Notes under the pieces: generated by a model
The model's input: the letters and a program-made list of their open reading frames with translations, nothing else
What the model was told of the DNA's origin: nothing
Databases searched by the model: none
In this document: piece after piece, positions 27,675 through 63,482 of the stretch
Numbering within the stretch: the stretch's first letter is position 1
How the letters are laid out: each line of letters opens with the position of its first letter
Assembly: GCF_030816155.1 (NCBI RefSeq)
Contig: NZ_JAUSXR010000001.1
Span: 1,364,001 to 1,428,000 of the forward strand
Source of the DNA: Arthrobacter woluwensis
Lineage (GTDB): Bacteria; Actinomycetota; Actinomycetes; Actinomycetales; Micrococcaceae
DNA: 64,000 bases
Reading direction: 5' to 3'
Made by a program: the position numbers and the translations under genes

Positions 27675-30633
27675 GTGCCTCATGTCAGCGGTGAACAAGT
27701 CCTGTCTCCTGAACAGCTCAACCACAACCATGGCGCGGCCCGCCTGAACGGCGCCGGCTCGCCTGGCCATGCCCCGTCGTCGCGCCTGGTGGTGAAGGGC
27801 GCCCGCGAGCATAATCTGCGCAACGTGGACCTGGATCTGCCCCGGGACGCCATGATTGTCTTCACCGGCCTCTCCGGCTCCGGGAAGTCCTCGCTCGCTT
27901 TCGACACGATCTTCGCCGAGGGCCAGCGCCGCTACGTGGAATCGCTGTCCGCGTATGCCCGCCAGTTCCTCGGGCAGGTGGACAAGCCCGACGTCGACTT
28001 CATCGAAGGTCTGTCGCCGGCCGTGTCGATCGACCAGAAGTCGACCAGCAAGAATCCCCGGTCCACGGTGGGCACCATCACTGAGATCTACGACTACATG
28101 CGTCTGCTCTGGGCGCGTGTGGGCCGCCCGCATTGCCCGATCTGTGGCGAAGAGGTGGCCCGTCAGACCCCGCAGCAGATCGTCGATCAGCTGCTGGAGC
28201 TCCCCGAGGGCACCCGCTTCCAGGTGCTCGCGCCCGTGGTGCGCGGCCGTAAGGGCGAGTTCGTGGACCTGTTCAAGGAACTCGGCGCCAAGGGGTTCGC
28301 CCGGGCCCGGGTGGACGGCGAGCAGATCCAGTTGACGGACCCGCCCAAGCTGGGCAAGCAGTACAAGCACACCATCGAAGTGGTGGTGGACCGTCTGGTG
28401 GTCAAGGACGGCATCCGCCAGCGTCTCACCGATTCGGTCGAGACCGCCCTGGGGCTGGCTGAAGGCCGCGTGCTTGCCGACTTCGTGGACCTCGACGCCG
28501 AGGACCCGGGCCGGGTGCGTGCGTTCTCCGAGAACCTGGCGTGCCCGAATGAGCACCCGCTGGCGATCGATGAGATCGAACCGCGGTCCTTCTCATTCAA
28601 CAACCCGTTCGGAGCCTGCCCTGAATGCACGGGCATCGGCACCAAGCTCGAAGTGGACGAAGAGCTCGTGGTCCCCAACCCGGAGCTGAGCCTGAACGAA
28701 GGCGCCATCGCCCCGTGGTCCCTGGGCGCCGCCACCCAGGAGTACTGGAACCACTTGCTGTCCGGCCTCGCGGACGAGCTCGGCTTCTCGATGGACACGC
28801 CGTGGGAGAAGCTCGGCAAGTCCGTCCGTGAGACCGTTCTGCACGGCAAGGACCACAAGGTGGTGGTCCAGTACCGCAACCGTTTCGGCCGCGAACGCAA
28901 GTACAGCACCGGCTTCGAAGGCGTGGTCCAGTACGTGCACCGCAAGCACGGCGAAACCGAGTCGGACTTCGCCCGTGACCGGTACGAGGAGTACATGCGG
29001 CAGATCCCGTGCCCCGCCTGCAACGGCGCACGGCTCAACCCGGCGTCTCTGTCCGTGCTGATCAACGGAAAGTCGATTGCGGCCGTCTGCGCCATGCCCA
29101 TGCGGGACTGCGTCGAATTCCTGGGCAGCCTCGAGCTGTCCCCGCGCGAGGCGCAGATCGCCGCCCAGGTGCTCAAGGAGATCCACGCCCGCCTGACCTT
29201 CCTGCTCGACGTCGGGCTGGATTACCTGAATCTGGAACGCCCGTCCGGGACCCTGTCCGGTGGCGAGGCTCAGCGCATCCGTCTGGCGACCCAGATCGGT
29301 TCCGGGCTGGTCGGCGTGCTGTACGTGCTCGACGAGCCGTCCATCGGTCTGCATCAGCGCGACAACCGCCGTCTGATCGAGACCCTGACCCGCTTGCGCG
29401 GGCTGGGGAACACCCTGATCGTGGTCGAGCATGACGAGGACACCATCCGCGAGGCCGACTGGATCGTGGACATCGGTCCGGGCCGCCGGCGAACACGGCG
29501 GCAAGGTCGTCCACTCGGGCACCTACAAGGAACTCCTGGCCAACACGGAGTCGCTCACGGGCGACTACCTCTCCGGCCGCAAGGGGATCGACGTGCCGGC
29601 CAAGCGCCGCCCGTACGACCGTAAGCGTGAGCTCGTGGTGGTGGGGGCCCGTGAGAACAACCTCAACAACGTCACGGCGCGCTTCCCTCTGGGTGTGCTC
29701 ACCGCCGTGACCGGAGTGAGCGGCTCCGGCAAGTCCACGCTGGTCAACGAGATCCTGTACAAGGTGCTGGCCAACAAGCTCAACGGCGCCCGCCAGGTGG
29801 CCGGCCGCCACAAGACCGTGGAAGGCCTGGAGCACCTGGACAAGGTGGTCCATGTGGACCAGAGCCCGATCGGGCGCACCCCGCGGTCCAACCCCGCCAC
29901 GTACACCGGCGTGTTCGACAACATCCGGAAGCTTTTCGCGGAGACCAACGAGGCGAAGGTCCGCGGGTATCTGCCGGGCCGGTTCTCCTTCAACGTCAAG
30001 GGCGGCCGCTGCGAGGCGTGCTCGGGTGACGGCACCCTGAAGATCGAGATGAACTTCCTCCCGGACGTCTACGTGCCCTGCGAGGTCTGCCATGGCGCCC
30101 GGTACAACCGGGAGACCCTGGAGGTCCATTACAAGGGCAAGACCATCGCGGACGTGCTCAACATGCCCATCGAGGAAGGGGCCGAGTTCTTCTCCGCCTT
30201 CACCCCGATCGCCCGGCACTTGAACACCCTGGTGGATGTCGGCCTCGGTTACGTCCGCCTGGGGCAGCCGGCCACGACCCTCTCCGGCGGTGAGGCGCAG
30301 CGCGTCAAGCTCGCCGCGGAGCTGCAGAAGCGTTCCAACGGCCGCAGCATCTACGTGCTCGACGAGCCCACCACGGGCCTGCACTTCGAGGACATCCGGA
30401 AGCTGCTGCTGGTGCTCCAGGGGCTGGTGGACAAGGGCAACACGGTCATCACGATCGAACACAATCTGGACGTCATCAAGAGTGCCGACTGGATCGTGGA
30501 TCTCGGACCCAACGGCGGCTCGGGTGGCGGACGCATCATCGCCACGGGAACCCCCGAGCAGGTCGCGGCCACCGAGGGCTCGTTCACGGGTGAATTCCTG
30601 GCCGAGATCCTCGAGGGAACCCCGGTCAAGTAG
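27675..30633 (+). pseudogene. uvrA: UvrABC system protein A, interrupted by a +1 frameshift
   Basis: As read, the gene is split: frame 1 from the GTG at 27675 carries the first ABC module and frame 2 carries the second up to 30633. The frame breaks at 29483-29484, where GGGCCGCCGG should read GGGCGCCGG; removing one C restores [14 protein letters not shown] and a 985-residue protein. Both Walker A sites ([18 protein letters not shown]), two LSGGEAQR signatures and the CxxC zinc modules (CPIC, CPEC, CPAC, CEAC, CEVC) are intact. UvrA finds DNA damage and loads UvrB. A sequencing error is the most likely explanation; if real, the strain should be UV-sensitive. Confidence 0.93.
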
Positions 30634-30720
30634 TCGCGTGACGGCATACATCGACTCGAAGCATGCCGTGCGGTGTATGGGTGTTTTCTGTCCGTGCGCC
30701 CGGCATGAGAAACTACCTCG

Positions 30721-31515
30721 GTGACTCTCGCTCAAGCTGCCGTGCTCTTCGACCTGGACGGGACCCTCATCGATCCCGCAGGGGGGATCACCGGCGGAAT
30801 CGCCGCGGCTCTCCACGAGGCCGGCCTCCCCATACCCCCCGATCAGGCGCTGCAGGCGATGGTCGGTCCCCGCCTGAGCCATGCTCTGCAGGAGTTCGCC
30901 GGCGTGCCGGAAGAGCGGGTCGATGAGGTCATCGCCCTGTACCGGCGCCATTACCGGACCACGGGAATGGCGGCCAGCCGGGTGTACCCCGGCATCCGCG
31001 AGGCCCTGGCGGAACTGCGCGCACGGGGATACGCCCTGGCGGTGGCCACGCAGAAGCCCCGCACTCTGGCGCTTGAACTGCTGGGCCTGCACGGCCTGGT
31101 GGAGGCCTTCGACGCAGTGCAGGGCTCCTCGGATGATGAGAGTGCTCAGGGCCCCGGCCACGGCGTGCCTCTCGGCAAGCAACAGATCATCGCGGCGGCG
31201 CTCCAGGACCTCGGTGCCCCGGCCTCCGCGGTGATGGTGGGAGACCGGTACCAGGACGTCGAAGGCGCGACGGCGAATCAGCTGCCGTGCATCGGCGTCG
31301 CGTGGGGTTTCGCCGTGGACGGTGAGCTGGAACGCGCCGGAGCGATTTCGGTGGTCTCGTCCACCGACGAACTGCTCCGTGGACTGCCGGGCCCTGCCGG
31401 TGCACAGTCGGGCGGGTCAGGGCTCGCCGCAGGGGAAGCGGTGGCCACGGTGGCCGCCGTCGGGGGAGCAGTGGTTGATGGAGCAGCGGAGGAAGAACAC
31501 CATGGCCGTATTTGA
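30721..31515 (+). CDS. HAD-family phosphatase (phosphoglycolate phosphatase-like)
   Basis: A 264-residue HAD hydrolase. FDLDGTLIDP (Asp11 nucleophile, Asp13 acid) starts the domain, VATQKP is motif II, and MVGDRYQDVEGA is the metal-binding motif IV; the alpha-helical cap lies between. The most similar families are phosphoglycolate phosphatase (Gph) and related sugar phosphatases. The last 40 residues are Gly/Ala-rich and overlap the acyltransferase gene by 14 nt, so the tail may be non-functional. It starts at GTG 30721 with no obvious ribosome site. It is the first gene of a run with the acyltransferase and uvrC. Confidence 0.82.
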   Translation: MTLAQAAVLFDLDGTLIDPAGGITGGIAAALHEAGLPIPPDQALQAMVGPRLSHALQEFAGVPEERVDEVIALYRRHYRTTGMAASRVYPGIREALAELRARGYALAVATQKPRTLALELLGLHGLVEAFDAVQGSSDDESAQGPGHGVPLGKQQIIAAALQDLGAPASAVMVGDRYQDVEGATANQLPCIGVAWGFAVDGELERAGAISVVSSTDELLRGLPGPAGAQSGGSGLAAGEAVATVAAVGGAVVDGAAEEEHHGRI

Positions 31516-32170
31516 CGCAGTCCGCTTCACCACCCGGACCCTCATCAAGGGCACGTGCCGTCCGACGGTCACCGGCCTGGAGAACGTCCCCACGGACGGC
31601 CCCTTCATCGTGGCGCCGAATCACCTGTCGTTCTTCGACAGTGTGATCGTTCAGGCTCTCATGCCCCGCCCGGTGGCCTTCTTCGCCAAGGCGGAGTACT
31701 TCACCGGAACCGGTGTGAAGGGCAAGGCCATGAAGGCGTTCTTCGAGTCCGTGGGATCCATTCCGGTGGAACGCGGCGAGCAGGCTGCCAGCGTCCAGGC
31801 GCTCAAGACCCTCCTGGACATCCTGGAGAACGGCAACGGTGTGGGCATTTACCCGGAGGGCACGCGCTCCCGCGACGGCCTGCTGTACCGCGGCCGGACC
31901 GGCGTCGGCTGGCTCGCCCTGACCACGGGAGCCCCCGTGGTGCCCGTCGGACTGATCGGCACGGACAAGCTCCAGCCGGCCGGCAAGAACACGCTCAAGC
32001 CGCAGCACTTCACCATGGTGGTGGGCGAGCCGCTGTACTTCGAGAAGACCGGGCCGGACCATTCGCTGCCCGCACGCCGGCAGGCGACGGATCGCATCAT
32101 GGACGCCATCGCGGCGCTGAGCGGTCAGGAACGGGCCAGCGGGTACAACCAGGTGCGCACCAGTGAGTGA
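31502..32170 (+). CDS. Lysophospholipid/1-acyl-glycerol-3-phosphate acyltransferase (PlsC-like)
   Basis: A 222-residue LPLAT-family acyltransferase. The catalytic H-x4-D is in NHLSFFD (His41, Asp46), and YPEGTRSRDG is the glycerophosphate-binding motif. It transfers an acyl chain to lysophosphatidate or a related lipid in the membrane. I chose ATG 31502, which follows GGAGGAAG; this overlaps the HAD gene by 14 nt. The gene lies 20 nt upstream of uvrC, a neighbourhood that is conserved without an evident functional link. Confidence 0.88.
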   Translation: MAVFDAVRFTTRTLIKGTCRPTVTGLENVPTDGPFIVAPNHLSFFDSVIVQALMPRPVAFFAKAEYFTGTGVKGKAMKAFFESVGSIPVERGEQAASVQALKTLLDILENGNGVGIYPEGTRSRDGLLYRGRTGVGWLALTTGAPVVPVGLIGTDKLQPAGKNTLKPQHFTMVVGEPLYFEKTGPDHSLPARRQATDRIMDAIAALSGQERASGYNQVRTSE

Positions 32171-32190
32171 TCTAGAGAAGCGGAGGAGCC

Positions 32191-34248
32191 ATGGCGGATC
32201 CGGCGAGCTATCGGCCCAGGACAGGGGAGATCCCCACCGAACCCGGGGTGTACCGCTTCCGTGACCAGCACGGACGGGTCATCTACGTGGGCAAGGCGAA
32301 GAGCCTCCGTTCGCGCCTGAACTCGTACTTCGCCAAGCCCGCCGGCCTCACTCCGAAGACCTATGCGATGGTCCACGCCGCGTCGAGCGTCGAATGGACC
32401 GTGGTGGGCAGTGAACTCGAATCCCTCCAGCTCGAGTACACCTGGATCAAGGAGTTCAAGCCTCGCTACAACGTCGTGTTCCGCGACGACAAGAGCTACC
32501 CCTACCTGGCCGTGACGATGGGGGAGAAGTTCCCCCGGGTGCAGGTGATGCGCGGTGAACGGCGGAAGGGCGCCAAGTACTTCGGCCCCTACACGGCCGG
32601 GGCCATCCGCGAGACCATGGACACGCTGCTGCGGGTGTTCCCGGTCCGCAGTTGCAGCGCCGGGGTGTTCCGGCGCGCCGAGGCCAGTGGCCGGCCCTGC
32701 CTGCTCGGGTACATCGACAAGTGCTCGGCGCCGTGCGTCGGGCGGATCAGCGAAGAGGACCACCGGGCCCTCGCGGAGGACTTCTGCTCTTTCATGGGCG
32801 GTGAGGCCGGACGCTTCCTCCGGCGCCTCGAGCGTGAGATGAAGGACGCCGTGGCGGAGCTCAACTACGAGCAGGCCGCACGGATCCGTGACGACATCGC
32901 CGCCATGCGCAAGGTGTTCGAACGCAATGCCGTCGTCCTGGCCGACACCACCGACGCGGACCTCTTCGCCATCCATGAGGATGAACTCGAGGCGTCCGTC
33001 CAGGTGTTCCGTGTCCGTGGTGGCCGCATCCGGTCGCAGCAGGGCTGGGTGGTGGAAAAGGTCGAGGACACCACTCCCGCGGACCTGATCGAGCACCTCC
33101 TTCAGCAGGCGTACGGCGAGGAGGCCGGCAACACGGATCGGATCCCGCGGGAGGTCCTCGTCCCCGTCCTGCCGCCGGATCCGGGGCAGCTCGGTGAATG
33201 GCTGAGCGGACTGCGGGGGAGCCGGGTCGAGATCCGGGTCCCTCAACGGGGTGACAAGGCCCAGCTCATGGAGACCGTGCGGACCAACGCGGAGCAGGCC
33301 CTCAAGCTGCACAAGACCCGTCGCGCGGGGGACATCACGACCCGTTCACTCGCGATCCAGGAGCTCCAGGAGGCGCTGGAACTCGATGAGCCGCCGCTGC
33401 GCATCGAGTGCTTCGACATCTCCCACGTCCAGGGCACCAATGTCGTGGGCTCCATGGTGGTGGTCGAGGACGGCCTGCCACGCAAGAGCGAGTACCGGAA
33501 GTTCACCATCACCGGCGCCGCGGCTCACGATGACACCGCCGCCATGGACGACGTGCTGACGCGGCGCTTCAAGGCGTACCTGCGGGACCGCGTCCACGTG
33601 CCGGAGACTCTGGGCCGGGCCGACGACGGCGGTGAGGCGGGAAGCGCTGCGCCTGAAGGCGATGCGCCGAACACCGCAGTGCCTCAAAGTCCAGTGCCCG
33701 AAAGTGCTGCCCCTGCGGAGGCCGTGATCGGCGCCCCCGTGCAGCCCGGCAAGTTCGCATATCCGCCGAACCTCGTCGTCGTCGACGGCGGCAAGCCCCA
33801 GGTGGCCGCCGCCCAGCGGGCACTCGACGCCCTCGACATCACGGAGGTGCGGGTGGTCGGACTGGCGAAGCGCCTCGAGGAGGTCTGGCTGCCGGACAGC
33901 GACTTCCCCGTGATCCTGCCGCGCGCCTCGCAGGGGCTCTACCTGCTCCAGCGGATCCGCGACGAAGCCCACCGTTTCGCCATCACATTCCACCGCCAGC
34001 GGCGCGGCAAGGCGATGACGGCGTCCGCACTGGACGGCGTCCCAGGGCTGGGGGAGAGCAAGCGGAAGGCGCTGCTGTCCCACTTCGGGTCGGTCAAGAA
34101 GATGCGGGCCGCCACGGTCGAGGAGCTGTGCGAGGTCAAGGGGATCGGCACGGTCCTGGCGACCGCCATCCACGCCCACCTCACCCGTGACAGCGCCGAC
34201 GAGGTCCCCGCCGTCAACTACACCACCGGCGAGATCCTCGAGCCCTGA
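32191..34248 (+). CDS. uvrC: UvrABC system protein C
   Basis: A 685-residue excision nuclease with an N-terminal GIY-YIG domain ([21 protein letters not shown] near 15-35), a UVR domain ([21 protein letters not shown]), a C-terminal RNase H-like domain ([28 protein letters not shown]) and a tandem helix-hairpin-helix ([21 protein letters not shown]). It cuts both sides of the lesion in excision repair. The start has GGAGGAG upstream. An Ala/Pro/Glu-rich linker (about residues 470-517) interrupts the nuclease domain between conserved blocks and makes the protein a little longer than usual. Confidence 0.97.
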
Positions 34249-34334
34249 GCGCCAGGAAAGTTCGCTACGCTTGAGGCAGCCGCGTCGCCGGGCCGGCGGT
34301 GCCGCCCGCACTGATCCAAGGAGCAGGAACCCCC

Positions 34335-35264
34335 ATGTCGGACGCAGAAGTGACCAGTCCCGCCCCCGAGGGTGCGGCCCCGGAACACCCGGCCCAGGAG
34401 CACAACGCCGAGCTGCTGATCATCACCGGCATGTCCGGAGCGGGCCGCAGCACGGCCGCGGACGCGCTGGAGGACCACGGCTGGTACGTGGTGGACAACA
34501 TCCCGCCGAAGATGCTCAACATGCTGACCGAGATCGTCTCCCATGCCGGGCCGGCGATCCCCAAGCTGGCGGCCGTCGTCGACCTGCGCAGCAAGGGCCT
34601 GTCCGCGAACATCCTGGAGTCCCTCACCAACCTCTCGGCCAGCGGCATCAAGTACCAGGTCCTGTTCCTGGACGCCTCCGACGAAGTGCTCGTCCGGCGT
34701 TTCGAGCAGGGGCGCCGACCGCACCCGCTGCAGAACGGCGGCCGGATCCTGGACGGGATCGCCGCGGAGCGCGAACTGCTCAAGGACCTCCGGCACAAGG
34801 CCGACATCGTGCTGGACACCTCCTCGCTGAATGTCCACGGCCTGGCCAGCGCGGTCACCGACCTCTTCACCGACTCGGGTCCCGTGGTCCTGCGGCTGAA
34901 CGTCATGAGCTTCGGGTTCAAGTACGGCCTGCCCGTGGACGCCAACTACGTCGCCGACGTGCGTTTCCTCCCGAATCCGCACTGGATCCCCGAGCTGCGC
35001 CCGCACACGGGACAGGACGAGGACGTCCGGGACTACGTCCTGGCCGCGTCCGGCGCCGAGGAGTTCCTGGGGAACTACGTCAAGGCCCTCGAGCCCGTGC
35101 TGGCTGGCTACCGCCGCGAGAACAAGCACTATGCCACGATCGCCGTCGGCTGCACCGGCGGCAAGCACCGGTCCGTGGCCATGTCCGAGGAGCTCTCCAA
35201 GCGCCTCGCCCAGTTGCCCAATGTCACGGTCAACACGAGCCACCGAGACCTGGGGCGCGAGTAG
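34335..35264 (+). CDS. rapZ: RNase adapter RapZ / nucleotide-binding protein
   Basis: A 309-residue protein of the RapZ (YvcJ) family. GMSGAGRST (32-40) is the P-loop, with Arg where E. coli RapZ has Lys, as is common in actinobacteria. [15 protein letters not shown] and the C-terminal [13 protein letters not shown] block are further markers. In E. coli RapZ directs RNase E cleavage of a small RNA; in Gram-positives it is a nucleotide-binding protein of uncertain role. I chose ATG 34335, with a purine-rich AGGAA 6 nt upstream. The stop overlaps the start of yvcK (TAGTG). Confidence 0.93.
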
Positions 35265-36281
35265 TGACGATCTTCACCGGCCAGCTTCCGCTGGTCCCGC
35301 CCGGCGGGCGGGCCGCAGCGCAGGAGGGCGCGGGCCCCGCCGTGGTGGCGCTCGGCGGAGGTCATGGGCTGTCCGCCACCCTGAGCGCGCTGCGGCTGCT
35401 CACCACTTCGTTGACGGCCGTCGTGACCGTGGCCGACGACGGCGGGTCCTCCGGGCGTCTGCGCCAGGACTTCGGCGTCCTCCACACCCGGTGACCTGCG
35501 CATGGCGCTGGCGGCGCTCTGCGATGACACGGACTGGGGACGCACATGGCGTGACGTCATGCAGCACCGCTTCCGGGGCCGCCCCGGGGGCAGTGGAGCC
35601 CTCGACGAGCATGCCATGGGCAATCTCCTGATCATCACGCTCTGGGAACTGCTGGGCAATCCGGTGGACGGTCTCAAATGGGCCGGAGCCCTGCTGGGCG
35701 CCCGCGGGCAGGTGCTGCCGATGTCCACCGTCCCGCTCACGATCGAGGGCGAGGCGAAGATCGCCGGCGAGGACGGTGAGACTGGTTCCCGGACCATCCG
35801 CGGCCAGGCCCAGTGTGCTGTGGCCGGGGAACTCGAGAACGTCCGGCTGATCCCGCAGGACGCCCCGGCGTGCGCTGAGGCCCTGAGCGCCATCGAGCTC
35901 GCGGACTGGGTCGTTCTCGGACCGGGGTCCTGGTACACCTCGGTGCTGCCGCATCTGCTGCTGCCGGAGATGCGGTCCGCGCTGGCGAGCACCCCCGCCC
36001 GGCGTGCTCTGGCCATGAACCTGACCACCGAGACCCAGGAGACGGTGGGCATGAACGCGGCCGATCACCTGCGGGTGCTGCGGGAATACGCGCCCGAGGT
36101 CGGTTTCGACGTGGTCATCGCCGACCCGGATTCCGTGGGCGACCGCGAGGAATTCATCGCCGAGGCCGGCCGTCTGGGGGCCGAAGTCCATCTGGCCACC
36201 GTGCGGAGCCCCCGCTCCGCCGCGGTGCACGACCCGCTGCGGCTGGCCACCGCCTATCACGAAGTTTTCAACAGGAAATAG
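35264..36281 (+). pseudogene. yvcK: YvcK/CofD-like gluconeogenesis factor, interrupted by +1 frameshift
   Basis: Frame 1 starts at GTG 35264 and stops at 35494, and frame 2 resumes at about 35484 to 36281. CTCCACACCCGGTGAC should be CTCCACCCGGTGAC or similar: removing one A near 35484 restores the conserved DFGVLPPGDLRMALAAL reading and a 338-residue protein. VALGGGHGLSATLSAL and VVTVADDGGSSGRLR are intact in frame 1. YvcK binds UDP-GlcNAc and controls carbon flow and peptidoglycan enzyme placement. The rapZ-yvcK-whiA order is conserved in Gram-positives. I believe the frameshift is a sequencing error. Confidence 0.9.
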
Positions 36282-36289
36282 GAGCACGT

Positions 36290-38056: not shown

Positions 38057-38073
38057 TCAGCCCGCGGAATGAC

Positions 38074-38104: not shown

Positions 38105-38119
38105 CGTGCCGTAATATAG

Positions 38120-42717: not shown

Positions 42718-43646
42718 CTCAGGCACTCCTTTTGCGCGATTCGAGGCAATCCTTCGGTCAATACTTCCCCGAAGACCTCGTCCGGGTCCAGCCGGCGCAG
42801 TTCCTCGGCGAGGCAGTCCTGAAGGCCACGGCGCGGAAGGGAGATCCGCTGCAGAGGCTGATCGGGCTGGCTCAGCTCCGCGACGGTGGTGCCCGGGCGG
42901 TGCAGCTGGACATCGCCGGACGGGCGGCGGATCAGCACACGGCGGATGCCGGTGCCTGCGGGGTCCTCGATGATCTTCACGGGGACGTCGAAGGCCAGGG
43001 CGAGCCACGAGGCGAGCAGGAGGGTGCTCGCGGAGTCGCTGGCGCCCTCCACCTCGACCTCGGTGACCGGAGTGTCGTCGACCTGGTCGAAGGCCGCCGC
43101 GAGCTGGATGCGCCAGTTGGTCAGACGCGTCCACGCCAGGTCGGTGTCGCCCGCCTGGTAGGTGCGCCGGATGTTGTCCAGTGCCGCCACCGGATCGGCC
43201 TCGTTCGCCGAATCGGTGATCCGGCGGTGGGCGATACGGCCGATGGACGTCCCGGAGGCGTCCTCCGGGGCTCCGTGCGGCCACCAGGCGACGATCGGGG
43301 CGTCCGGCAGCAGGAGAGCGGACACCAGGGACTCGCTCTCCTCAGAGAGGCGTCCGTAGCCGCGCAGCACGATCACCTCGGAAGCGCCGGCGTCGCCGCC
43401 GACCCGGATCTCCGCGTCCAGGCGGTCCGGCTCCTCGGCGCCCGCATCCGCGAGCACGATGATGCGGCACGGATGTTCGCGGCTGGCCTCGTTGGCGGCC
43501 TGGATGGCCTCGTCCTCGAGCCCGTTGCGGGTGAGGACCACCAGGGTGAGCACGCGGCCGAGGGCGATGACGCCGCCCTGCTCCCGCAGCTTGGTGATCT
43601 CCTTGGAGATCTTGGACGTGGTGGTGTTGGGAAGTTCGACGATCAT
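42714..43646 (-). CDS. opcA: Glucose-6-phosphate dehydrogenase assembly protein OpcA
   Basis: A 310-residue OpcA protein; the gene lies directly between zwf and pgl, as is standard in actinobacteria and cyanobacteria. Markers include the N-terminal helical segment TTSKISKEITKLREQGG and RIIVLADAGAEEPD. OpcA is an allosteric activator and assembly factor for Zwf. Both ends overlap its neighbours by 4 nt (zwf stop at 43643, pgl start at 42717), so translation is coupled. Confidence 0.93.
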   Translation of the reverse strand: MIVELPNTTTSKISKEITKLREQGGVIALGRVLTLVVLTRNGLEDEAIQAANEASREHPCRIIVLADAGAEEPDRLDAEIRVGGDAGASEVIVLRGYGRLSEESESLVSALLLPDAPIVAWWPHGAPEDASGTSIGRIAHRRITDSANEADPVAALDNIRRTYQAGDTDLAWTRLTNWRIQLAAAFDQVDDTPVTEVEVEGASDSASTLLLASWLALAFDVPVKIIEDPAGTGIRRVLIRRPSGDVQLHRPGTTVAELSQPDQPLQRISLPRRGLQDCLAEELRRLDPDEVFGEVLTEGLPRIAQKECLR

Positions 43647-45200
43647 GGCCTTCTCCAGGTGCGTCCGTCACGGGCGAGGAGCTCGTCCGCGGAGGACGGA
43701 CCCCAGCTGCCCGGGGCATACGGTTCGGGTTGTTCCTCCAGGCTTGCCCAGTACTCCTCGAACGGATCGAGGATCTTCCAGGACAGCTCCACTTCCTGGT
43801 GGCGCGGGAAGAGCGGCGGCTCGCCCAGCAGGACGTCCAGGATGAGGCGCTCGTACGCCTCGGGGCTGGACTCGGTGAAGGAGTGACCGTAGCCGAAGTC
43901 CATCGAGACGTCGCGGACCTCCATCTGCGTCCCCGGAACCTTGGAACCGAAGCGGATGGTGGCGCCCTCATCGGGCTGGACGCGGATCACCACGGCGTTC
44001 TGGCCGAAGTCCTCGTCACCGTTCTCGCGGAACAGGAGGTTCGGGGCCTTCTTGAAGACGACGGCGATCTCGGTCACGCGGCGCCCCAGACGCTTGCCCG
44101 TGCGCAGGTAGAACGGCGCGCCGGCCCAGCGACGGGTGTTGATGTCCACGCGGATCGCGGCGAAGGTCTCCGTGGTGGAGTCCGCCGGGATGCCTTCCTC
44201 CTCCAGGTAGCCGAGGACTTCCTCGCCGCCCTGGAGCCCGCCGGAGAACTGGCCCCGGGCGGAGTGCGTGGACAGGTCATCCGGCAGCTTGACGGCCGCC
44301 AGGACCTTCTCCTTCTCCGCGCGGAGGTCTTCGGCGTTGAAGGAGATGGGCTCTTCCATGGCCGTCAGCGCGAGGAGCTGCAGGAGGTGGTTCTGGATGA
44401 CGTCGCGGGCCGCGCCCACGCCGTCGTAGTAGCCCGCACGGCCACCGGTGCCGATGTCCTCGGCCATGGTGATCTGCACGTGGTCCACATAGTTGGCGTT
44501 CCAGATCGGCTCGAAGAGCTGATTGGCGAAGCGGAGGGCCAGGATGTTCTGGACGGTCTCCTTGCCGAGGTAGTGGTCGATGCGGAACACCGAGTCCGGG
44601 GGGAACACGGATTCGACGATGTCGTTCAGCGCGCGGGCCGACTCGAGGTCGTGGCCGAAGGGCTTTTCGATGACCACTCGGCGCCAGGTGCCCGGCTCGG
44701 CCTGGGCCAGGCCGTGCTTGGACAACTGGGTGCAGACGAGCTCGAAGGCCTTCGGCGGGATGGAGAGGTAGAACGCGTGGTTTCCGCGCGTGCCCCGTTC
44801 CCTGTCGAGTTCTTCGATGGTGGCCTTGAGACGTTCGAAGGCCTCGTCGTCGTCGAATTCACCCTGCACGAAGCGGATGCCCAGGGACAGCTGGTCCCAG
44901 ACCCGCTGATCGAAGGGCGTGCGGCAGTGCTGCTTGACGGATTCGAGGACCTCCGCGGCGAAATCCTCGTTCTCCCACTGCCGCGCGGGCGAAGCCCACC
45001 AGGGCGAAGCTGGGAGGGAGGAGCCCACGGTTGGCCAGGTCGTACACGGCCGGCATGAGCTTCTTACGGGCGAGGTCACCCGTGACACCGAAGAGGACAA
45101 GGGAGGACGGACCGGCAATCCGGCTCAGACGGCGGTCCCGCGGATCCCGCAAGGGGTTCCGGAGACCGCCGTTCTGGGCGCCAGGTTCACGTGTTGGCAT
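43643..45200 (-). pseudogene. zwf: Glucose-6-phosphate 1-dehydrogenase, interrupted by +1 frameshift
   Basis: The first part runs from ATG 45200 and the rest is in another frame to 43643. At about 44984 (plus-strand CCACTGCCGCGCGGGC) one extra base breaks the reading. Removing it restores FALVGFARRQWENEDFAAEV and a 518-residue protein. GPSSLVLFGVTGDLARKKLMP is the NADP site and RIDHYLGKE the catalytic region (HYLGKE). Zwf is the first enzyme of the pentose phosphate pathway. It lies 44 nt after pgi and overlaps opcA by 4 nt. A sequencing error is much more likely than real loss, since the rest is intact. Confidence 0.93.
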
Positions 45201-45244
45201 TGTGCTTGAGGAGCCTTAGCGATATGGAGGGATGGGTGCTGGGC

Positions 45245-54826: not shown

Positions 54827-54871
54827 GTGGAAGGCGGGAAGTTATTTAGTGATGATTGTGTTGTGTATTCC

Positions 54872-55723
54872 ATGGACACCTCTACGAACAGGCCGGTCGA
54901 CAGCCTGAATCCGGGGGCCCAGCAGGGCGCTCCGGGTTCAGTCGTGCCCGCGCCCCGTGAGGTCCCGTCCCGCGAGGTCCAGACCCGTGCTGCCTCGTCC
55001 CGTGCAGTCTCGCGTGGCTCTCTCGTGGAGCCCGAGGACCGCACGCGGGACAAGGTGCGGGCCGCCGTGCTGGAGCACGGTCCCATCAGCGCCGCTGAAC
55101 TCGGCAAGCTCCTCGGCTACACGCCCGCCGCGGTCCGCCGTCACCTGGACCAGCTTGAGCGCGGAGGCGTGATCGAGGTCAAGCGCATGGTCAAGGCCGG
55201 CGCAGGAGCGGGGCGCCCGGCGCGGCGCTACGTCATCAGTTCCCAGGGTCAGCAGCACTGGGGCGACGACTACCTGGACATCGCCAGCAAGGCGCTGCAC
55301 GAACTTGCGGCGCTGGGCGGCGAGCAGGCGGTCGAGGCTTTCGCCGAACGCCGTTTCGCCGGCATGGCGGAGCGCTACGCCGACGAGGTGAACGCCGCAG
55401 GGTCCGACGTCGAGGCCCGCGCCATGGCGCTCGTCGCGGCGCTCAATCGCGACGGCTTCGTCGCCAACGCCAATGTCCTGCGCATCCATCCGGTGAGCAA
55501 GAAGCCCTTGCCGCCGCAGCTCACAGCCATCCAGCTGTGCCAGGGGCATTGCCCCATCCAGAACCTGGCCGCCGAATTCCCGGTCTTCTGTGACAAGGAG
55601 ACCGAGGTGTTCGAACGGCTTCTCGGTGTGGACGTCCGTCGTCTTTCCACGCTGGCCAACGGCGGCCACGTCTGCACCACGCACATTCCTACCGGACGCA
55701 ACCACCAGCAAGAAAGGCCGTGA
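54872..55723 (+). CDS. sufR: SufR-type Fe-S regulator
   Basis: A 283-residue ArsR/MarR-like regulator. A winged HTH (ISAAELGKLLGYTPAAVRRHLDQLERGGVIEV) occupies about residues 70-110, and the C-terminal domain has the Cys cluster CQGHCPIQ...FCDKE and VCTTHIP that would bind a Fe-S cluster. It represses the suf operon when clusters are sufficient. The N-terminal 45 residues are Pro/Arg-rich and probably disordered, with a short repeat (SREV, SRAV). I chose ATG 54872; the stop overlaps the sufB start (TGATG). Confidence 0.9.
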   Translation: MDTSTNRPVDSLNPGAQQGAPGSVVPAPREVPSREVQTRAASSRAVSRGSLVEPEDRTRDKVRAAVLEHGPISAAELGKLLGYTPAAVRRHLDQLERGGVIEVKRMVKAGAGAGRPARRYVISSQGQQHWGDDYLDIASKALHELAALGGEQAVEAFAERRFAGMAERYADEVNAAGSDVEARAMALVAALNRDGFVANANVLRIHPVSKKPLPPQLTAIQLCQGHCPIQNLAAEFPVFCDKETEVFERLLGVDVRRLSTLANGGHVCTTHIPTGRNHQQERP

Positions 55724-57187
55724 TGACGGACCAACTAGCAGAAAAGCCAGTGGCTGAGGGTACGGTGATCTCCGAGATTCTGGAAAAGAACCCGGAGCTC
55801 CACGGTATCGGCAACTACGAGTACGGCTGGGCAGACAAGGACGACGCCGGCGCCAACGCGCGCCGCGGCCTGAACGAGGACGTCGTCCGGGACATCTCCA
55901 CCAAGAAGAGCGAACCCCAGTGGATGCTTGACCTGCGTCTGAAGGGCCTCAAGTACTTCGACCGGAAGCCCATGCCCGCCTGGGCGCGCGGACCTCTCCG
56001 GCATCGACTTCGACAACATCAAGTACTTCGTGCGCTCCACGGAGAAGCAGGCCGGTTCCTGGGAAGAGCTTCCCGAGGACATCCGGACCACTTACGAAAA
56101 GCTCGGCATCCCGGAAGCGGAGCGCAGCCGCCTCGTGGCCGGCGTCGCGGCTCAGTACGAGTCCGAGGTCGTCTACCACCAGATCCGTGAGGACCTGGAG
56201 CAGCAGGGCGTCATCTTCCTCGACACCGACACCGCGCTGAAGGAACACCCGGAGATCTTCCAGGAGTACTTCGGCACCGTGATCCCGGTGGGCGACAACA
56301 AGTTCGCCTCCCTGAACACGGCCGTGTGGTCCGGCGGCTCCTTCGTCTACGTCCCCAAGGGCGTTCACGTGGAGATCCCGCTGCAGGCCTACTTCCGCAT
56401 CAACACGGAGAACATGGGCCAGTTCGAGCGCACCCTCATCATCGCCGATGAGGACTCCTACGTGCACTACATCGAGGGCTGCACCGCCCCGATCTACAGC
56501 TCGGACTCGCTGCACTCCGCCGTGGTCGAGATCGTGGTCAAGAAGGGCGCCCGCGTCCGCTACACCACCATCCAGAACTGGTCCAACAACGTGTACAACC
56601 TGGTGACCAAGCGCGCGATCTGCGAAGAGGGCGCCACCATGGAGTGGATCGATGGCAACATCGGCTCCAAGGTCACCATGAAGTACCCGGCCGTCTACCT
56701 CGTGGGCGAGCACGCCAAGGGTGAGACCCTGTCCATCGCCTTCGCCGGCGAGGGCCAGCACCAGGACACCGGCTCCAAGATGGTGCACATCGCTCCCAAC
56801 ACCAAGAGCTCCATCATCTCCAAGTCGGTGGCCCGCAACGGCGGCCGTGCCGCGTACCGTGGCCTGGTCCAGGTCCGCGAAGGCGCCAAGCACTCCGCCA
56901 ACACCGTCCGCTGTGACGCCCTGTTGGTGGACACCATCTCCCGCTCGGACACCTACCCGTACATCGACATCCGCGAGGACGATGTGCAGCTGGGTCACGA
57001 GGCCACGGTCTCCCGTGTCTCCGAGGAGCAGCTGTTCTACCTGATGTCCCGCGGCATGCCCGAGGACGAGGCCATGGCCATGATCGTGCGCGGCTTCATC
57101 GAGCCGATCGCCCGTGAGCTCCCCATGGAGTACGCGCTCGAGCTCAACCGCCTCATCGAACTCCAGATGGAAGGATCCGTCGGTTAA
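55723..57187 (+). pseudogene. sufB: Fe-S assembly protein SufB, interrupted by +1 frameshift
   Basis: Frame 1 runs from ATG 55723 (AAAGG upstream) to about 55984 and frame 2 from there to 57187. GCCTGGGCGCGCGGAC should be GCCTGGGGCGCGGAC; removing one C near 55985 restores the conserved [17 protein letters not shown]. The rest has the beta-helix core, with [19 protein letters not shown] and [10 protein letters not shown] intact. SufB is the scaffold subunit of the SufBCD complex. SufB is essential in most actinobacteria, so I regard this as a sequencing error. Confidence 0.92.
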
Positions 57188-58425
57188 TGACTGCCGAAGC
57201 AACTGAGAAGGCCCGCATCGGCGCCCCGTCGATCGCCGGTTTCACCGAAGAGGGCGAGCAGCTGGTCTCCAGCAAGGTCGACCACAAGCACAATGACGGC
57301 ACCACCGTCATGTCCTCCCGCGCCGAGCGTCTGACCAGCCACAACGTGGCCGATTTCGCCCTGCCAGACGGCCGTGAGGAGGAGTGGCGCTTCACCCCGG
57401 TGCGCGAGCTCCAGCCGCTGCTGCAGGACGGCGCGAACGACGACGGCGCCACGACGGTCTCCGTCGAGGCTCCGGAAGGCTACGTGTCCGCTCCGCTGGC
57501 CATCGGTCAGGCGCCCCGCGCCACCGCGCTGGTGCCGGCCGACCGTGCCGCCGCCGTGGCCTCCGCCAACGCGCCCGAGGCGCTGCACGTCGTCGTGCCC
57601 GAAGGCGCGCAGCCCGAGGAACCCGTGCGGATCCTGCTGTCCGGCCAGGGCGCCGGCAAGCGCTCCAACAGCCACCTCGTCCTCGAGGCGGGCGCCAACT
57701 CCAAGTCGGTCGTCATCCTCGAGCACGACGGTTCCGCCAACCACAACGGCAACGTTGAGATCTTCGTCGGCGAGGCCGCCGAGCTCACCGTCGTCTCCGT
57801 GCAGCTCTGGGAGGATGACGCCATCCACCTGGCCCAGCACGACGCCGTCGTGGCCAAGGAAGGCGTGTACAAGCACATCGCCGTGACGCTGGGCGGCAAG
57901 ATCGTCCGCCTGAACTCCAATGTGCGTTTCTCCGGCGAACAGGCCGAGGCCGAGCTCCTGGGGCTCTACTTCGCCGACGCCGGCCAGCACCTGGAGCACC
58001 GTTCGTTCGTGGATCACAACGTGCCGAACTGCACCTCCAACGTCCTCTACAAGGGTGCGCTGCAGGGCAAGGGCGCTCACACGGTGTGGGTGGGTGACTG
58101 CCTCATTCAGAAGCAGGCCGTTGGCACCGACTCGTACGAGAAGAACCAGAACCTGGTCCTGACCGACGGCTGCCGCGCGGACTCCGTGCCCAACCTGGAG
58201 ATCGAGACCGGCCTCATCGCCGGCGCCGGTCACGCGTCCTCGACCGGCCGTTTCGATGACGAGCACCTGTTCTACCTCATGGCCCGCGGCATCCCGGAGG
58301 ATGTGGCCCGCCGTCTGGTGGTCCGAGGCTTCCTGAACGAGATCATTCAGAAGATCAAGGTCCCGGCCCTCGAGGAACGTCTCACCGAGGCCGTGGAACG
58401 CGAACTGACCGCAGGCGAGTACTAG
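57187..58425 (+). CDS. sufD: Fe-S assembly protein SufD
   Basis: A 412-residue SufB/SufD-family protein. SFVDHNVPNCTSN and the C-terminal RGIPEDVARRLVVRGF are family signatures. It pairs with SufB in the SufBCD scaffold complex. The start overlaps the sufB stop (TAATG). It is followed by the Rieske gene after 11 nt. Confidence 0.93.
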   Translation: MTAEATEKARIGAPSIAGFTEEGEQLVSSKVDHKHNDGTTVMSSRAERLTSHNVADFALPDGREEEWRFTPVRELQPLLQDGANDDGATTVSVEAPEGYVSAPLAIGQAPRATALVPADRAAAVASANAPEALHVVVPEGAQPEEPVRILLSGQGAGKRSNSHLVLEAGANSKSVVILEHDGSANHNGNVEIFVGEAAELTVVSVQLWEDDAIHLAQHDAVVAKEGVYKHIAVTLGGKIVRLNSNVRFSGEQAEAELLGLYFADAGQHLEHRSFVDHNVPNCTSNVLYKGALQGKGAHTVWVGDCLIQKQAVGTDSYEKNQNLVLTDGCRADSVPNLEIETGLIAGAGHASSTGRFDDEHLFYLMARGIPEDVARRLVVRGFLNEIIQKIKVPALEERLTEAVERELTAGEY

Positions 58426-58436
58426 AAGGAGCGGAC

Positions 58437-58787
58437 GTGCCGGAAACGCCACAGGGCACCTTGGTGTGCAAGAGCACCGAGATCTCGCCCAAGCAGGCCC
58501 TCAGGGTTCTCCTCGAGGGATACCCCGTCGCCGTGGTGAAGGACTCCATGGGGGAGATCCACGCCATCGGTGACACCTGCTCGCACGCGGACGTCTCCCT
58601 CTCCGAGGGCGACGTCGAGGGTTGCGCGATCGAGTGCTGGGGACATGGTTCCCAGTTCGATCTGCGGTCCGGTCAGCCGCTCCAGCTCCCCGCCTATGAT
58701 CCCGTTCCCGTCTTCGCCGTGGAGATCCACGGCGACGACGTGTACGTCGACACCAGCAACGTTGTGAACGGCGCCCGGGTCTTCTGA
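58437..58787 (+). CDS. Rieske 2Fe-2S ferredoxin-like protein in the suf operon
   Basis: A 116-residue Rieske protein. CSH and CWGH (in TCSHADVSLSEGD and IECWGHGSQFDL) form the Cys-x-His and Cys-x2-His ligand pairs. It has the size of dioxygenase-type ferredoxins. Its place between sufD and sufC is typical of Micrococcaceae and other actinobacteria; it probably supplies electrons or a cluster during assembly, but the role is not established. AAGGAG precedes the GTG start. Confidence 0.9.
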   Translation: MPETPQGTLVCKSTEISPKQALRVLLEGYPVAVVKDSMGEIHAIGDTCSHADVSLSEGDVEGCAIECWGHGSQFDLRSGQPLQLPAYDPVPVFAVEIHGDDVYVDTSNVVNGARVF

Positions 58788-58829
58788 GCCCCGGCCGCAC
58801 CAAACAGACTTAGGACAAGAAAGAACAGC

Positions 58830-59612
58830 ATGTCTACTCTTGAAATCAAGGACCTGCACGTCAGCATCGAGACAGAGCAGGGCGAGAAGGAAATCCTCAA
58901 GGGCGTCTCCCTGGTCATCAAGACCGGCGAGACCCACGCCATCATGGGCCCCAACGGCTCCGGCAAGTCCACCCTGGCCTCCACGATCGCCGGTCACCCG
59001 CGCTACACCGTGACCAGCGGCTCCATCACCCTGGATGGTGAAGACGTCCTGGAGATGAGCGTGGACGAGCGTGCCCGCGCCGGCCTCTTCCTCGCCATGC
59101 AGTACCCGGTCGAGGTTCCCGGCGTGACCATGACCAACTTCCTCCGCACCGCCAAGACCGCCATCGACGGCGAGGCCCCCTCGCTGCGCACCTGGACCAA
59201 GGATGTCAAGGCGGCCATGGAGCAGTTGCGCATCGACGCCGACTTCGCCCAGCGCAACGTCAACGAAGGCTTCTCCGGCGGTGAGAAGAAGCGCGTGGAG
59301 ATCCTCCAGCTCGAGCTCTTCAAGCCGAAGTTCGCCATCCTCGACGAGACCGACTCCGGCCTGGACGTCGACGCTCTGAAGGTCGTCTCCGAGGGCGTCA
59401 ACCGCGCTCACGCCGGCGGCGGGATGGGCACCCTGCTCATCACCCACTACACGCGCATCCTGCGCTACATCAAGCCGGACTTCGTCCACGTCTTCGTCGA
59501 CGGCAAGGTCGTCGAGCAGGGCGGCCCGGAGCTGGCCGACCGCCTCGAAGACGAGGGCTACGACCGCTACGTGGCCGGCGCCGGCACGGCCTCCGAGCCG
59601 GCAGCGGTCTGA
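58830..59612 (+). CDS. sufC: Fe-S assembly ATPase SufC
   Basis: A 260-residue ABC-type ATPase. Walker A GPNGSGKST, the signature FSGGEKKR and Walker B FAILDETDSGLD are present. It provides energy for SufBCD. It has its own start 42 nt after the Rieske gene and is followed by the SufT-like gene after 34 nt. Confidence 0.95.
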   Translation: MSTLEIKDLHVSIETEQGEKEILKGVSLVIKTGETHAIMGPNGSGKSTLASTIAGHPRYTVTSGSITLDGEDVLEMSVDERARAGLFLAMQYPVEVPGVTMTNFLRTAKTAIDGEAPSLRTWTKDVKAAMEQLRIDADFAQRNVNEGFSGGEKKRVEILQLELFKPKFAILDETDSGLDVDALKVVSEGVNRAHAGGGMGTLLITHYTRILRYIKPDFVHVFVDGKVVEQGGPELADRLEDEGYDRYVAGAGTASEPAAV

Positions 59613-59646
59613 GCGACTCGACTGACAACCCGGGAGGGGACAGAAG

Positions 59647-59979
59647 ATGACCGAAGTGAATGCGGCCAGGACAAGTCTTGAGGACGTCGAAGAGGCGCTC
59701 AAGGACGTCATCGACCCCGAGCTCGGCGTCAACGTGGTGGACCTGGGCCTGCTGTACGGGCTCAAGTACTCCGACGAGGACGGCGCGCTCCTGATCGACA
59801 TGACCCTGACCACGGCGGCCTGCCCGCTCACCGACGTGCTCGAGGAGCAGGTGGGCAAGGCCCTGGACGGTGTCGTCGACGACTGGCGCCTCAACTGGGT
59901 GTGGATGCCGCCGTGGGGTCCCGAGCGGATCACCGATGACGGCAAGGACCAGATGCGGGCCCTCGGCTTCAACATCTGA
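59647..59979 (+). CDS. sufT: SufT / MIP18-family metal-sulfur cluster assembly protein
   Basis: A 110-residue DUF59 protein with VIDPELGVNVVDLGLLY and the Thr/Cys segment LTTAACPLTD, the conserved Cys being a probable ligand. It helps mature Fe-S proteins. It closes the operon, 34 nt after sufC. The gene pair sufS-sufU, present after sufC in many actinobacteria, is absent here, so the cysteine desulfurase must be encoded elsewhere. Confidence 0.87.
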   Translation: MTEVNAARTSLEDVEEALKDVIDPELGVNVVDLGLLYGLKYSDEDGALLIDMTLTTAACPLTDVLEEQVGKALDGVVDDWRLNWVWMPPWGPERITDDGKDQMRALGFNI

Positions 59980-60009
59980 TCCAGCCGCACGGCTGAGCGC
60001 GGCTCAACG

Positions 60010-60051
60010 ACGACGGCGGCGGCCGGGAGAAATCCCGGCCGCCGCCGTCGT
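60010..60051. terminator. Bidirectional terminator between sufT and proS
   Basis: A perfect 19-bp stem (60010-60028 with 60033-60051), starting ACGACGGCGG, closed by GAAA. It lies between the convergent sufT and proS genes and can stop both. Confidence 0.8.
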
Positions 60052-60076
60052 GCGTGGGAGTCGGTCCCGGGCCGGG

Positions 60077-61498
60077 TCAGTAGCTCCTGCCCACGACCGC
60101 GAAGAGTTCCTCGGGACGCGCGTCCGGGGCCGGGAGTCCGCCGTCCTCGGTCTGCAGGCAGCGCACGGTGATGGCCGAGGCGTTGAGCGTCCTCTCGCCG
60201 GATTCGCCGAGGAGGTCCCAGCGGATCCGGGCGAATCCTGTCTGAGCTGCTTGCTCGGCCTCGCCGGGATCGGTCGTCTCGAGGGTGTGGTCCGTCAGCC
60301 GCCGCTTGGCCTCCTGGAACATCGCGGCCTGGATCTCCGTCAGCAGGCCGGGGATCAGCGCGGCCGTCTCAGCGAGCGGCACCGGTTCCTTGCTGCCCGT
60401 GTCCCGGCGGACGAGGGTCGCCACGCCCTGGTCCAGGTCGCGCGGACCGATCTCGATCCGGAGCGGAACTCCCTTGAGCTCCCACTCCGTCACGCGGCGT
60501 CCGAAGCCGGTCGTGAGCCGTTCGTCGACCTTCACCCGGACGCCCGCCTGCTCCAGCTCTTCGCGGAGGCGTGCCGCGGCGGCGAGGACGCGGCCGTCGT
60601 CGCGCACCGGAACGATCACCAGCTGGACCGGCGCGATGGCCGGAGGGAGGCGGAGCCCCGTGTTGTCGCCGTGGGACATGATCAGCCCGCCCAGCATCCG
60701 GGTGCTCGATCCCCAGGACGTGGTCCAGCAGTCCTGCGCGGCGCCGTCCGCGTCCGTGAAGCCGATGCCGAAGGCCTTGGCGAAGTTCTGGCCGAGTTCG
60801 TGGCTCGTGGCCATCTGGAGAGCTTTGCCGTCGACCATCATGGCCTCGCAGGTCATCGTGTTGACGGCGCCCGCGAACCGCTCCGCCGGGGACTTGTCAC
60901 CCACCAGGACGGGGATGGCCAGGACGTCTTCCAGGAACGAGCGGTACACCTCGAGGTGGATGCGGCGCGCGTACGCCGCCGCCTCCTCGCGCGTCGCGTG
61001 GGCCGTGTGGCCTTCCTGCCACAGGAATTCGCTGGTCCGCAGGAACGTCCGGGGCCGCATCTCCCAGCGCACGACGTTGGCCCACTGATTCAGCAGGAGC
61101 GGCAGATCGCGGTAGGACTGGACCCACTTGGCCATGAGCTCGCCGAAGATGGTCTCGCTGGTGGGCCTCACGACCACGGGCTCGCTGAGTTCCTTGCCTC
61201 CGGCGTGCGTGACCACGGCGAGCTCCGGGCTGAACCCGTCCACATGCTCGGCTTCCCGTTCCAGGTAGGACTGCGGGATGAAGAGGGGGAGGTAGACGTT
61301 CTCGGCGCCGGCAGCTTTGATGCGGCCGTCGACGGCGGCCTGCATCCGCTCCCAGATGCCGTAGGCGTACGGGCGGATGACCATGGTCCCGCGCACCGGG
61401 CCGTTGTCGGCCAGCTGGGCCTTGTCCAGAACGTCCTGGTACCAGCGGGGGAAGTCCTCGGTTTGATCGGCGAGGACGGAAGCGTGTGCTTTCACCAT
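60077..61498 (-). CDS. proS: Prolyl-tRNA synthetase (archaeal/eukaryotic type)
   Basis: A 473-residue class II synthetase of the shorter ProS type: RPTSETIFG and TSEFLWQEGHTAHAT are motifs 2 regions, and there is no bacterial editing (INS) domain between motifs 2 and 3. The C terminus has the CLQTEDG type extension. It charges tRNA-Pro. The type is typical of archaea and eukaryotes and found sporadically in bacteria. It is downstream of the AhpD-like gene, on the same strand. Confidence 0.93.
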   Translation of the reverse strand: MVKAHASVLADQTEDFPRWYQDVLDKAQLADNGPVRGTMVIRPYAYGIWERMQAAVDGRIKAAGAENVYLPLFIPQSYLEREAEHVDGFSPELAVVTHAGGKELSEPVVVRPTSETIFGELMAKWVQSYRDLPLLLNQWANVVRWEMRPRTFLRTSEFLWQEGHTAHATREEAAAYARRIHLEVYRSFLEDVLAIPVLVGDKSPAERFAGAVNTMTCEAMMVDGKALQMATSHELGQNFAKAFGIGFTDADGAAQDCWTTSWGSSTRMLGGLIMSHGDNTGLRLPPAIAPVQLVIVPVRDDGRVLAAAARLREELEQAGVRVKVDERLTTGFGRRVTEWELKGVPLRIEIGPRDLDQGVATLVRRDTGSKEPVPLAETAALIPGLLTEIQAAMFQEAKRRLTDHTLETTDPGEAEQAAQTGFARIRWDLLGESGERTLNASAITVRCLQTEDGGLPAPDARPEELFAVVGRSY

Positions 61499-61543
61499 GG
61501 CCCGACCCTACCGGACGGTTGGGTCGCTGTGGGCCCGACCGAT

Positions 61544-61996
61544 TCAGGGCTTGACGGTGTAGTGGCTCGTGATGGCGACGCGGTTGTAGGCGTTGATCGT
61601 GATGGCGAGCCAGGAGACCGCCGAGATCTGGTCCTCCGTGAGGACCTGGGACACCGGCACGTAGACCTCGTCCGGGACCTGGTGATCGGACACGAGGGTG
61701 ATGGCTTCGGTCAGGGCCAGGGCGGCGCGTTCGACGGCGGTGAAGTACTCGCTCTCCCGCCAGGCCGGCAGCACGGCGAGGCGGTCCTGCGTCTCACCCA
61801 GCTTGACCGCGTCCTTGGTGTGCAGCCGCAGGCAGTAAGCGCAGCCATTGATCTGTGAGGCTCGGATCTTGAGGAGCTCGCAGAGCAGGGGGCTGATGTC
61901 CGCGGCGGCAGCGGCCTCGGTGGCGGCCTTGCTCAGCTTCCCCAGCGCTTTGAAGGTGTCGGAATGGGCTTTGCTGATGTTCACTCGACGGTTCAT
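61544..61996 (-). CDS. AhpD-like carboxymuconolactone decarboxylase-family protein
   Basis: A 150-residue AhpD-core protein. The CxxC motif is in NGCAYCLRLHTKDA, with the family His two residues after it and the EREAALALTEAIT-like helix in ERAALALTEAITLV. Such proteins act as peroxidases or disulfide reductases. I chose ATG 61996; the upstream in-frame residues are not conserved. It is 45 nt upstream of proS on the same strand, and the MFS exporter lies upstream. Confidence 0.85.
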   Translation of the reverse strand: MNRRVNISKAHSDTFKALGKLSKAATEAAAAADISPLLCELLKIRASQINGCAYCLRLHTKDAVKLGETQDRLAVLPAWRESEYFTAVERAALALTEAITLVSDHQVPDEVYVPVSQVLTEDQISAVSWLAITINAYNRVAITSHYTVKP

Positions 61997-62044
61997 GTCT
62001 GCATGGTAGCCGTGGCCGGTGTGCCGGGACATCCCCCGACCGGA

Positions 62045-63482
62045 TTATTCATGAGCCGTTCGACGGCGGTTCAGCCGGAGCGCCAGAAGCACCACGATCA
62101 GGGCGATCCCGAGGTCCAGGAACGTTCCCGCGGCGAACTCGGCCTGTCCCGTCAGGCCCGCTGCGGTGCCGATCCCGCCGATCAGAATGACGCCCAGGGA
62201 GAGCGCGAGCTGCTGGACGGTGCCGAACAGCCCGCCGGACAGGCCGGCCGCCTCCACCGGGATCTCGCGCACCACCGCCTGGGTGAGCGGGGAGAAGATC
62301 ATCGCCTGCCCGGCGCCCAGGAGCACCAGGCTCGGCTGCAGCAGCAGGGGAAGAGCCGGAGTCCAGGCCAGCAGCACTGTCGCGGCGATCAGGACGAGCG
62401 CCGCGCCCTGGAGCGTGACGCCCCAGAACAGCGTGCGGTCGCCGAGCCACCGCTGGATCCTGGACAGGCTGAGGGACACGGCCGTGAAGACCAGGGCGAA
62501 GGGAAGCAGGAGGAGACCCGCATCGAGGGGCGTCAGGCCGAGCCCGTGTTCCAGGGCGCGGGGGATGACGTAGAGGATCGCCCCATACCCGGCGAAGAAG
62601 AGGCCAGCGGCGAGCAGCCCGGTCTGGAGAGCCGGCAGACGCAGGATGCTGGGCGGCAGCAGAGGCACGCGGCCCGACCGTTCGATCCGGTTCTGATGCC
62701 GCCACAGTGCGAGCAGCAGGACCGCGGCCACCACGAGCGCGACCGGCACGGGCCACGGCCAGCCGAGCGAGGGCCCGAACGTCAGCCCGGCGGCCAGCAG
62801 CAGGACGCCGCCGCCGAGCTGGAGCGTGCCCGCGACGTCGATGTCCACGGCCTCGTGGGCTGTGCTGCGGGGCGCGAAGCGGCCGAGCACGACGGCGGCC
62901 GCCGCGATCGCCGCGGCGAGCCAGTAGACGGCACGCCATCCGGAGAGCGGGCCGAATGTGACGCTCGCCAGCGCCCCGCCGGCGACCCTGACCGAGCGCC
63001 GCGCCGATCCCGCCGCTGGCCCCGAAGGCGGAGATGGCACGCACGCGGGCCGCGCCGTCGCTCGTCGCCTGGATCGTGGCGAGCACCTGGGGCGTGCAGA
63101 GCGCGGCGCCGAGCCCTTGCGCGATCCGCGCTGCTATCAGCACGCCGAGGTTCGGCGCGAAGGAACACGCCAGGGCCGCCGCGAGGAACACGATCATTCC
63201 GAGGGTGAACATGCGGTGCCTGCCATACCGGTCACCGAGGCGCCCGCCCAGGATCAGCAGCGTGGCGAAGGGGATCCCGTAGCCGGCGACGACGAGTTCC
63301 AACCCGGCGTCGGACGCTGCGAACTCCGTGTGCAGCTGCGAGAGGGAGACTGTGACGGCGTTGAAGGCGTAGGACCCGACGCCGGGTGCCAGGACGAGGC
63401 CGAGATAGCGCCAGATCGGCACGGCGGCCGGTGGGACCGGGTGGAGCGTCGTCACGGGTGGGGCGGCTGGTGCGGTGGTCAT
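62045..63482 (-). pseudogene. MFS exporter (DHA2-like), interrupted by +1 frameshift
   Basis: Frame 1 starts at ATG 63482; frame 2 ends at 62045. At 62986-62988 (plus-strand GACCCTGAC) one extra base breaks the reading; dropping it restores GASGGIGAALGQVAGGALASV and a 478-residue protein with about 12-14 membrane segments. GGRLGDRYGRHRMF is the MFS motif. Multidrug export is likely. It is divergent from an XRE-family regulator, which is the probable controller. A sequencing error is the most likely cause, as in the other four genes. Confidence 0.85.

Follow-up and report, generated by a model that had tools for sequence, protein, structure and literature searches.

The window (the whole stretch of 64,000 bases that was analysed) corresponds to bases 1,364,001-1,428,000 of a genome present as a single contig of 3,508,095 bases, with a completeness of 95.43%. 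Five of its genes are interrupted by a change of reading frame, and a sixth extra base lies apart from them. The genes and sites are listed below, with positions counted from the first base of the window, the corresponding genome coordinate and its remainder (phase) modulo 500, followed by the basis of each call.

27675..30633, + strand, uvrA; frame change at about 29,483 (genome 1,393,483; 483 modulo 500); relatives and NCBIfam UvrA.
35253..36281 (start approximate, read from the translation), + strand, yvcK; frame change at about 35,484 (genome 1,399,484; 484 modulo 500); relatives and NCBIfam YvcK/CofD-related.
43643..45215, - strand, zwf; frame change at about 44,984 (genome 1,408,984; 484 modulo 500); relatives and NCBIfam zwf.
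55594..57187 (the low coordinate marks the limit of the matched open frame and is not a start codon), + strand, sufB; frame change at about 55,985 (genome 1,419,985; 485 modulo 500); relatives and NCBIfam sufB.
62049..63482, - strand, DHA2/EmrB-like MFS exporter; frame change at about 62,986 (genome 1,426,986; 486 modulo 500); relatives, with NCBIfam matches under their cut-offs.
21,982, no strand, an extra base, apparently intergenic (genome 1,385,982; 482 modulo 500); three-way alignment.

Three relatives of the same genus were used for comparison: G002, a single contig of 99% completeness with 96-97% identity in uvrA and zwf; G003, in nine contigs, with 95-97% identity in the same two genes; and G001, in thirty contigs, with 87-88% identity. 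The window aligns with G003 in one piece over its full length and with G002 in three pieces that cover almost all of it; G001 aligned at four of the five genes and is unmapped at the MFS gene. A reading made from the sequence alone had claimed exactly one extra nucleotide in each of the five genes, and the alignments bear this out: each gene has a net gain of one base vis-à-vis both G002 and G003, in which the genes are whole and one base shorter per site. A step of 80 bases across each break is 79 bases long in G002 and G003, and also in G001 at the four genes. In G002, the stop-to-stop frames spanning the breaks count 985 (uvrA), 493 (yvcK), 523 (zwf), 530 (sufB) and 604 (MFS exporter) codons.

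The pieces on either side of each break match the corresponding G003 protein in two frames, with identities of 99.7 and 99.2% for uvrA, 92 and 91% for zwf, 98 and 99% for sufB, 94 and 99% for the MFS exporter, and 83 and 98% for yvcK, whose first piece includes upstream sequence. The intact G002 copies of UvrA, YvcK and Zwf, as well as the window's own C-terminal piece of SufB, score over the NCBIfam cut-offs. The G002 copy of the MFS exporter is DHA2/EmrB-like and stays under the cut-off of every family among the matches listed (25 of 47). SufB reaches its family cut-off in 196 of the 197 genomes of the family sample, this genome included, and the C-terminal part found in the window is 98% identical to that of Arthrobacter sp. 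SW1 and 97% to that of Paenarthrobacter nicotinovorans. Arthrobacter and Paenarthrobacter are the closest genera, which makes this genome a member of the Micrococcaceae.

Since each gene resumes in another frame after a shift of one base, programmed +1 ribosomal frameshifting in all five genes could be envisaged. G002 and G003, however, read all five in one frame without the extra base, no common sequence is visible by eye at the sites, and these follow a lattice of coordinates, so that the chance of such a mechanism is negligible. As for the list of five sites, it was incomplete: the base at 21,982, which falls on the same lattice, had been missed. Two other one-base insertions specific to this genome, at positions 42730 and 61524 of the window, are not on the lattice, lie outside genes or at their edges, and resemble ordinary variation.

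The five gene sites fall at genome coordinates 483-486 modulo 500. The extent of this regularity was analysed by a three-way comparison covering the window and 15 of the first 20 stretches (the other five missing one or both relatives), for a total of 290,390 aligned columns. Only indels of 1-2 bases were retained, provided that their flanks (up to 20 columns on either side) were free of further gaps and had a three-way identity of 70% or more; 13 one-base insertions and 8 one-base deletions of this genome were dropped from the count as messy. Among the 19 clean insertions specific to this genome, 15 lie at 482-494 modulo 500 (p = 5.9e-21), including the five gene sites and position 21,982. 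The remaining four insertions, as well as eight of the nine deletions specific to this genome, have other phases, and these four were scored as non-coding or sit right at the border of an open frame. No 500-base phase was found in the short indels specific to the relatives, taken in their own coordinates, although their numbers are small (7 for G002 and 22 for G003).

A band of phases from 475 to 499 was then fixed for coding breaks before 18 new stretches were fetched, as well as further G002 sequence for two earlier stretches. Of these 20, sixteen could be aligned to G002 (255,332 bases). For this set and for the pooled run, indels of at most 2 bases were kept if their flanks, up to 25 columns long, contained no further gap and were at least 80% identical. 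Throughout, the coding label was given mechanically, from codon log-odds trained on the genes of this window, with possible errors at gene edges. Nine new coding breaks specific to this genome were obtained, all of them insertions, and seven fall inside the pre-set band (p = 2.6e-8), the two misses being at 1,933,014 and 2,801,471. Four of the 20 other insertions of this set are also in the band (p = 0.016).

The pooled pairwise run comprised 39 stretches including the window, 35 of which had coverage, with 659,524 bases of this genome aligned to a relative and reaching to about 3.075 Mb of the 3.51-Mb genome; stretches L133, L134, L225 and L226 had no coverage by a relative, and L113 and L114 stood outside the analysis. 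In this run, 28 distinct breaks of coding sequence proved specific to this genome, consisting of 28 insertions and no deletion; in one alignment it was the relative that had a break. The earlier statement that all interruptions are +1 thus holds at a larger scale. The band of 25 phases modulo 500 contains 24 of the 28 breaks (p = 1e-27). When integer periods from 20 to 3000 were scanned with all 28 breaks kept (an earlier scan had left out four off-band insertions), the strongest was 500, with harmonics at 250, 125 and 100.

The phase is not strictly constant along the record: it is 498-499 around 0.3 Mb and has dropped to 479-481 by about 3 Mb. For the 24 in-band events it follows the line 497.9 - 6.68 per Mb (r = -0.92, standard error of the intercept 1.0). 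By extrapolation to 497.9 at coordinate 0, the origin of the lattice is close to the first base of the record. For the eight pairs of neighbours less than 20 kb apart, the offset from a multiple of 500 is +1 in four cases, 0 in three and -1 in one, as expected if every extra base displaces the joins after it by about one. At a distance of up to 7 bases from the fitted line, the 659,524 sampled bases hold 32 short insertions and a single deletion, vs. 67 insertions and 67 deletions elsewhere. This contrast tells the artefact, made up of insertions, from ordinary variation, in which the two signs are balanced and most events do not count as coding breaks. The coding events scored here had also served to fit the line; the independent part of this result consists of the other events and the test with the pre-set band. 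Non-coding DNA is also affected, with eight further insertions on the lattice that were not scored as coding breaks, some of which may lie in genes.

An excess of +1 indels at the lattice is also seen in the sampled parts of the rest of the genome. The sequence-only reading had suspected a systematic artefact in this part of the record: the artefact is supported by the 500-base lattice, the insertion-only sign and the intact genes of the relatives, but it is not confined to this part, the lattice breaks spanning 0.27 to 3.06 Mb. The five coding breaks of the window, packed in 34 kb, are a local cluster inside this genome-wide pattern.

These results also bear on whether the strain truly carries the frameshifts, either through gene decay or as a mutator lineage. 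The breaks are indeed specific to this genome, and the few lying off the lattice could be real. Their positions, however, track the coordinates of the record; 28 insertions without a deletion in genes stand against the balanced indels found off the lattice; the pieces at four of the five breaks are still 91-99.7% identical to G003 (those of yvcK less evenly so, its first piece being joined to upstream sequence); and uvrA, zwf and sufB would have to have been lost jointly. True frameshifts are accordingly an extremely improbable explanation of the pattern.

Likewise, a fault in file handling, adding a character at the end of fixed blocks (e.g. of 500 letters) of the finished sequence, would produce only insertions, on a 500-base lattice counted from base 1. 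Against it, pure additions should raise the phase by one per site, whereas the observed phase falls by about 6.7 per Mb, and the inserted letters vary and match their context in part only. We regard such a fault as highly unlikely.

The local sequence at the 24 on-lattice coding sites was analysed as well. The longest single-base run within 3 bases of a site is 1-4 bases, and the inserted base copies a neighbour at 16 sites and differs from both neighbours at the eight others, which does not fit a plain duplication of the base at the join. It is the 500-base lattice, tied to the record, and not the local sequence that determines where the errors fall. Given on the + strand, the inserted bases are C at eight sites, G at eight, A at six, GG at one and CG at one, and never T; the absence of T might reflect the chemistry of the reads, the number being small and the genome GC-rich.

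Generic long-read error, i.e. random or homopolymer-length miscalls left by poor polishing, irrespective of window edges, does account for many frame breaks of one sign and for a low completeness, and at the off-lattice break at 2,801,471 a run of G has been lengthened. It leaves unexplained the phase shared modulo 500 by 24 of the 28 breaks, and a longest run of only four bases at these 24 sites argues against homopolymer error. This makes it a very unlikely origin of the lattice.

Cells have no knowledge of the coordinates of a record, and the extra bases are almost certainly errors of the consensus at window boundaries: we put at about 0.93 the probability that they arose at the cuts made when the assembly was divided, for polishing, into successive windows of 500 bases. 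A process bound to coordinates, with a step of 500 and a slight change in length, is a windowed consensus. The draft contig would have been polished window by window from the first base of the record, with one surplus base, occasionally two, left in the consensus at some 2% of the joins. If the record was not rotated later, the joins would remain near multiples of 500, with a slow drift as polishing altered the length; the drift of -6.7 bases per Mb implies that some bases of the draft were also dropped from the consensus. The source of the errors would be the polishing program, probably of the Racon or PacBio Quiver/Arrow type, for which 500 bases is the default size of the window or chunk. 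Insertion-rich raw reads, such as early PacBio ones, may lie behind the +1 sign, and polishing was presumably followed by no accurate correction.

Some observations count against window boundaries as the cause: four of the 28 coding breaks are off the lattice, and the joins show no errors but insertions, a restriction not required of a generic boundary fault. No excess of substitutions specific to this genome was found at the joins (130 of 4956, i.e. 2.6%, vs. 2.4%; p = 0.33), raised substitutions not being a necessary feature of a boundary artefact of polishing windows.

Concerning known systems, Racon is described, in the passages of PMC11232133 drawn on here, as dividing contigs into non-overlapping windows, each solved apart, and VeChat, in those of PMC9636371, as using non-overlapping 500-bp windows on the target read. 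The likeness of the present case to windowed polishing, by Racon or PacBio Quiver/Arrow, would lie in a contig being solved in separate windows, but the same passages of the two papers do not describe a lattice of one-base insertions at the joins. A search of the literature, by title and start of abstract, for insertions at 500-base boundaries found no paper, which is not to claim absence from print. With unpolished long-read-only genomes, this record shares many frameshifted conserved genes, a lower completeness and intact relatives. The errors that usually remain in nanopore genomes are tied to homopolymers, which make up 76% of the residual errors after recategorising in the best pipelines (PMC11232133, same passages), whereas those found here are positioned by the lattice and lie in short runs.

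In terms of scale, the 32 on-lattice insertions in 659,524 bases represent about 2.4% of the window joins. Extrapolation from the 24 on-lattice coding breaks in the same bases gives roughly 130 coding breaks for the whole genome, which agrees with its low completeness, the 42 other single-contig genomes of the family among those listed having 98-100%. The genes broken on the lattice, sufB, uvrA and zwf among them, are very probably broken in the record only, and studies of gene loss, essentiality or pseudogenes using this record would be misled.

The five breaks are no biological feature; as quality control, they provide a sharp and reusable test. What is new with respect to the sequence-only reading is the proof based on coordinates and the likely cause of the artefact. 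Taking frame breaks modulo the window length is simple, sign-specific and independent of reads, and is applicable to any genome with a close relative. A 500-base lattice of one-base insertions may even be a general mark of windowed polishing that has seldom been described and that many public genomes built from long reads only would carry, although we consider this somewhat less than an even chance. If true, comparing frame breaks with the coordinate modulo the window length could automatically flag false "pseudogenes" and "missing essential genes" without raw reads.

As for the four coding breaks off the lattice, those at 1,838,533 (L125), 1,933,014 (L218) and 2,801,471 (L223) may be genuine frameshifts, errors of another kind or places where a gene edge was misjudged. 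The fourth, at 1,427,456, was called only vis-à-vis G002, is apparently in frame vis-à-vis G003 and may be no break at all; it was kept among the 28. Finally, the one short deletion found no more than 7 bases from the fitted lattice, at genome position 1,836,989 (L125), is a shortened run of G and may be there by chance.
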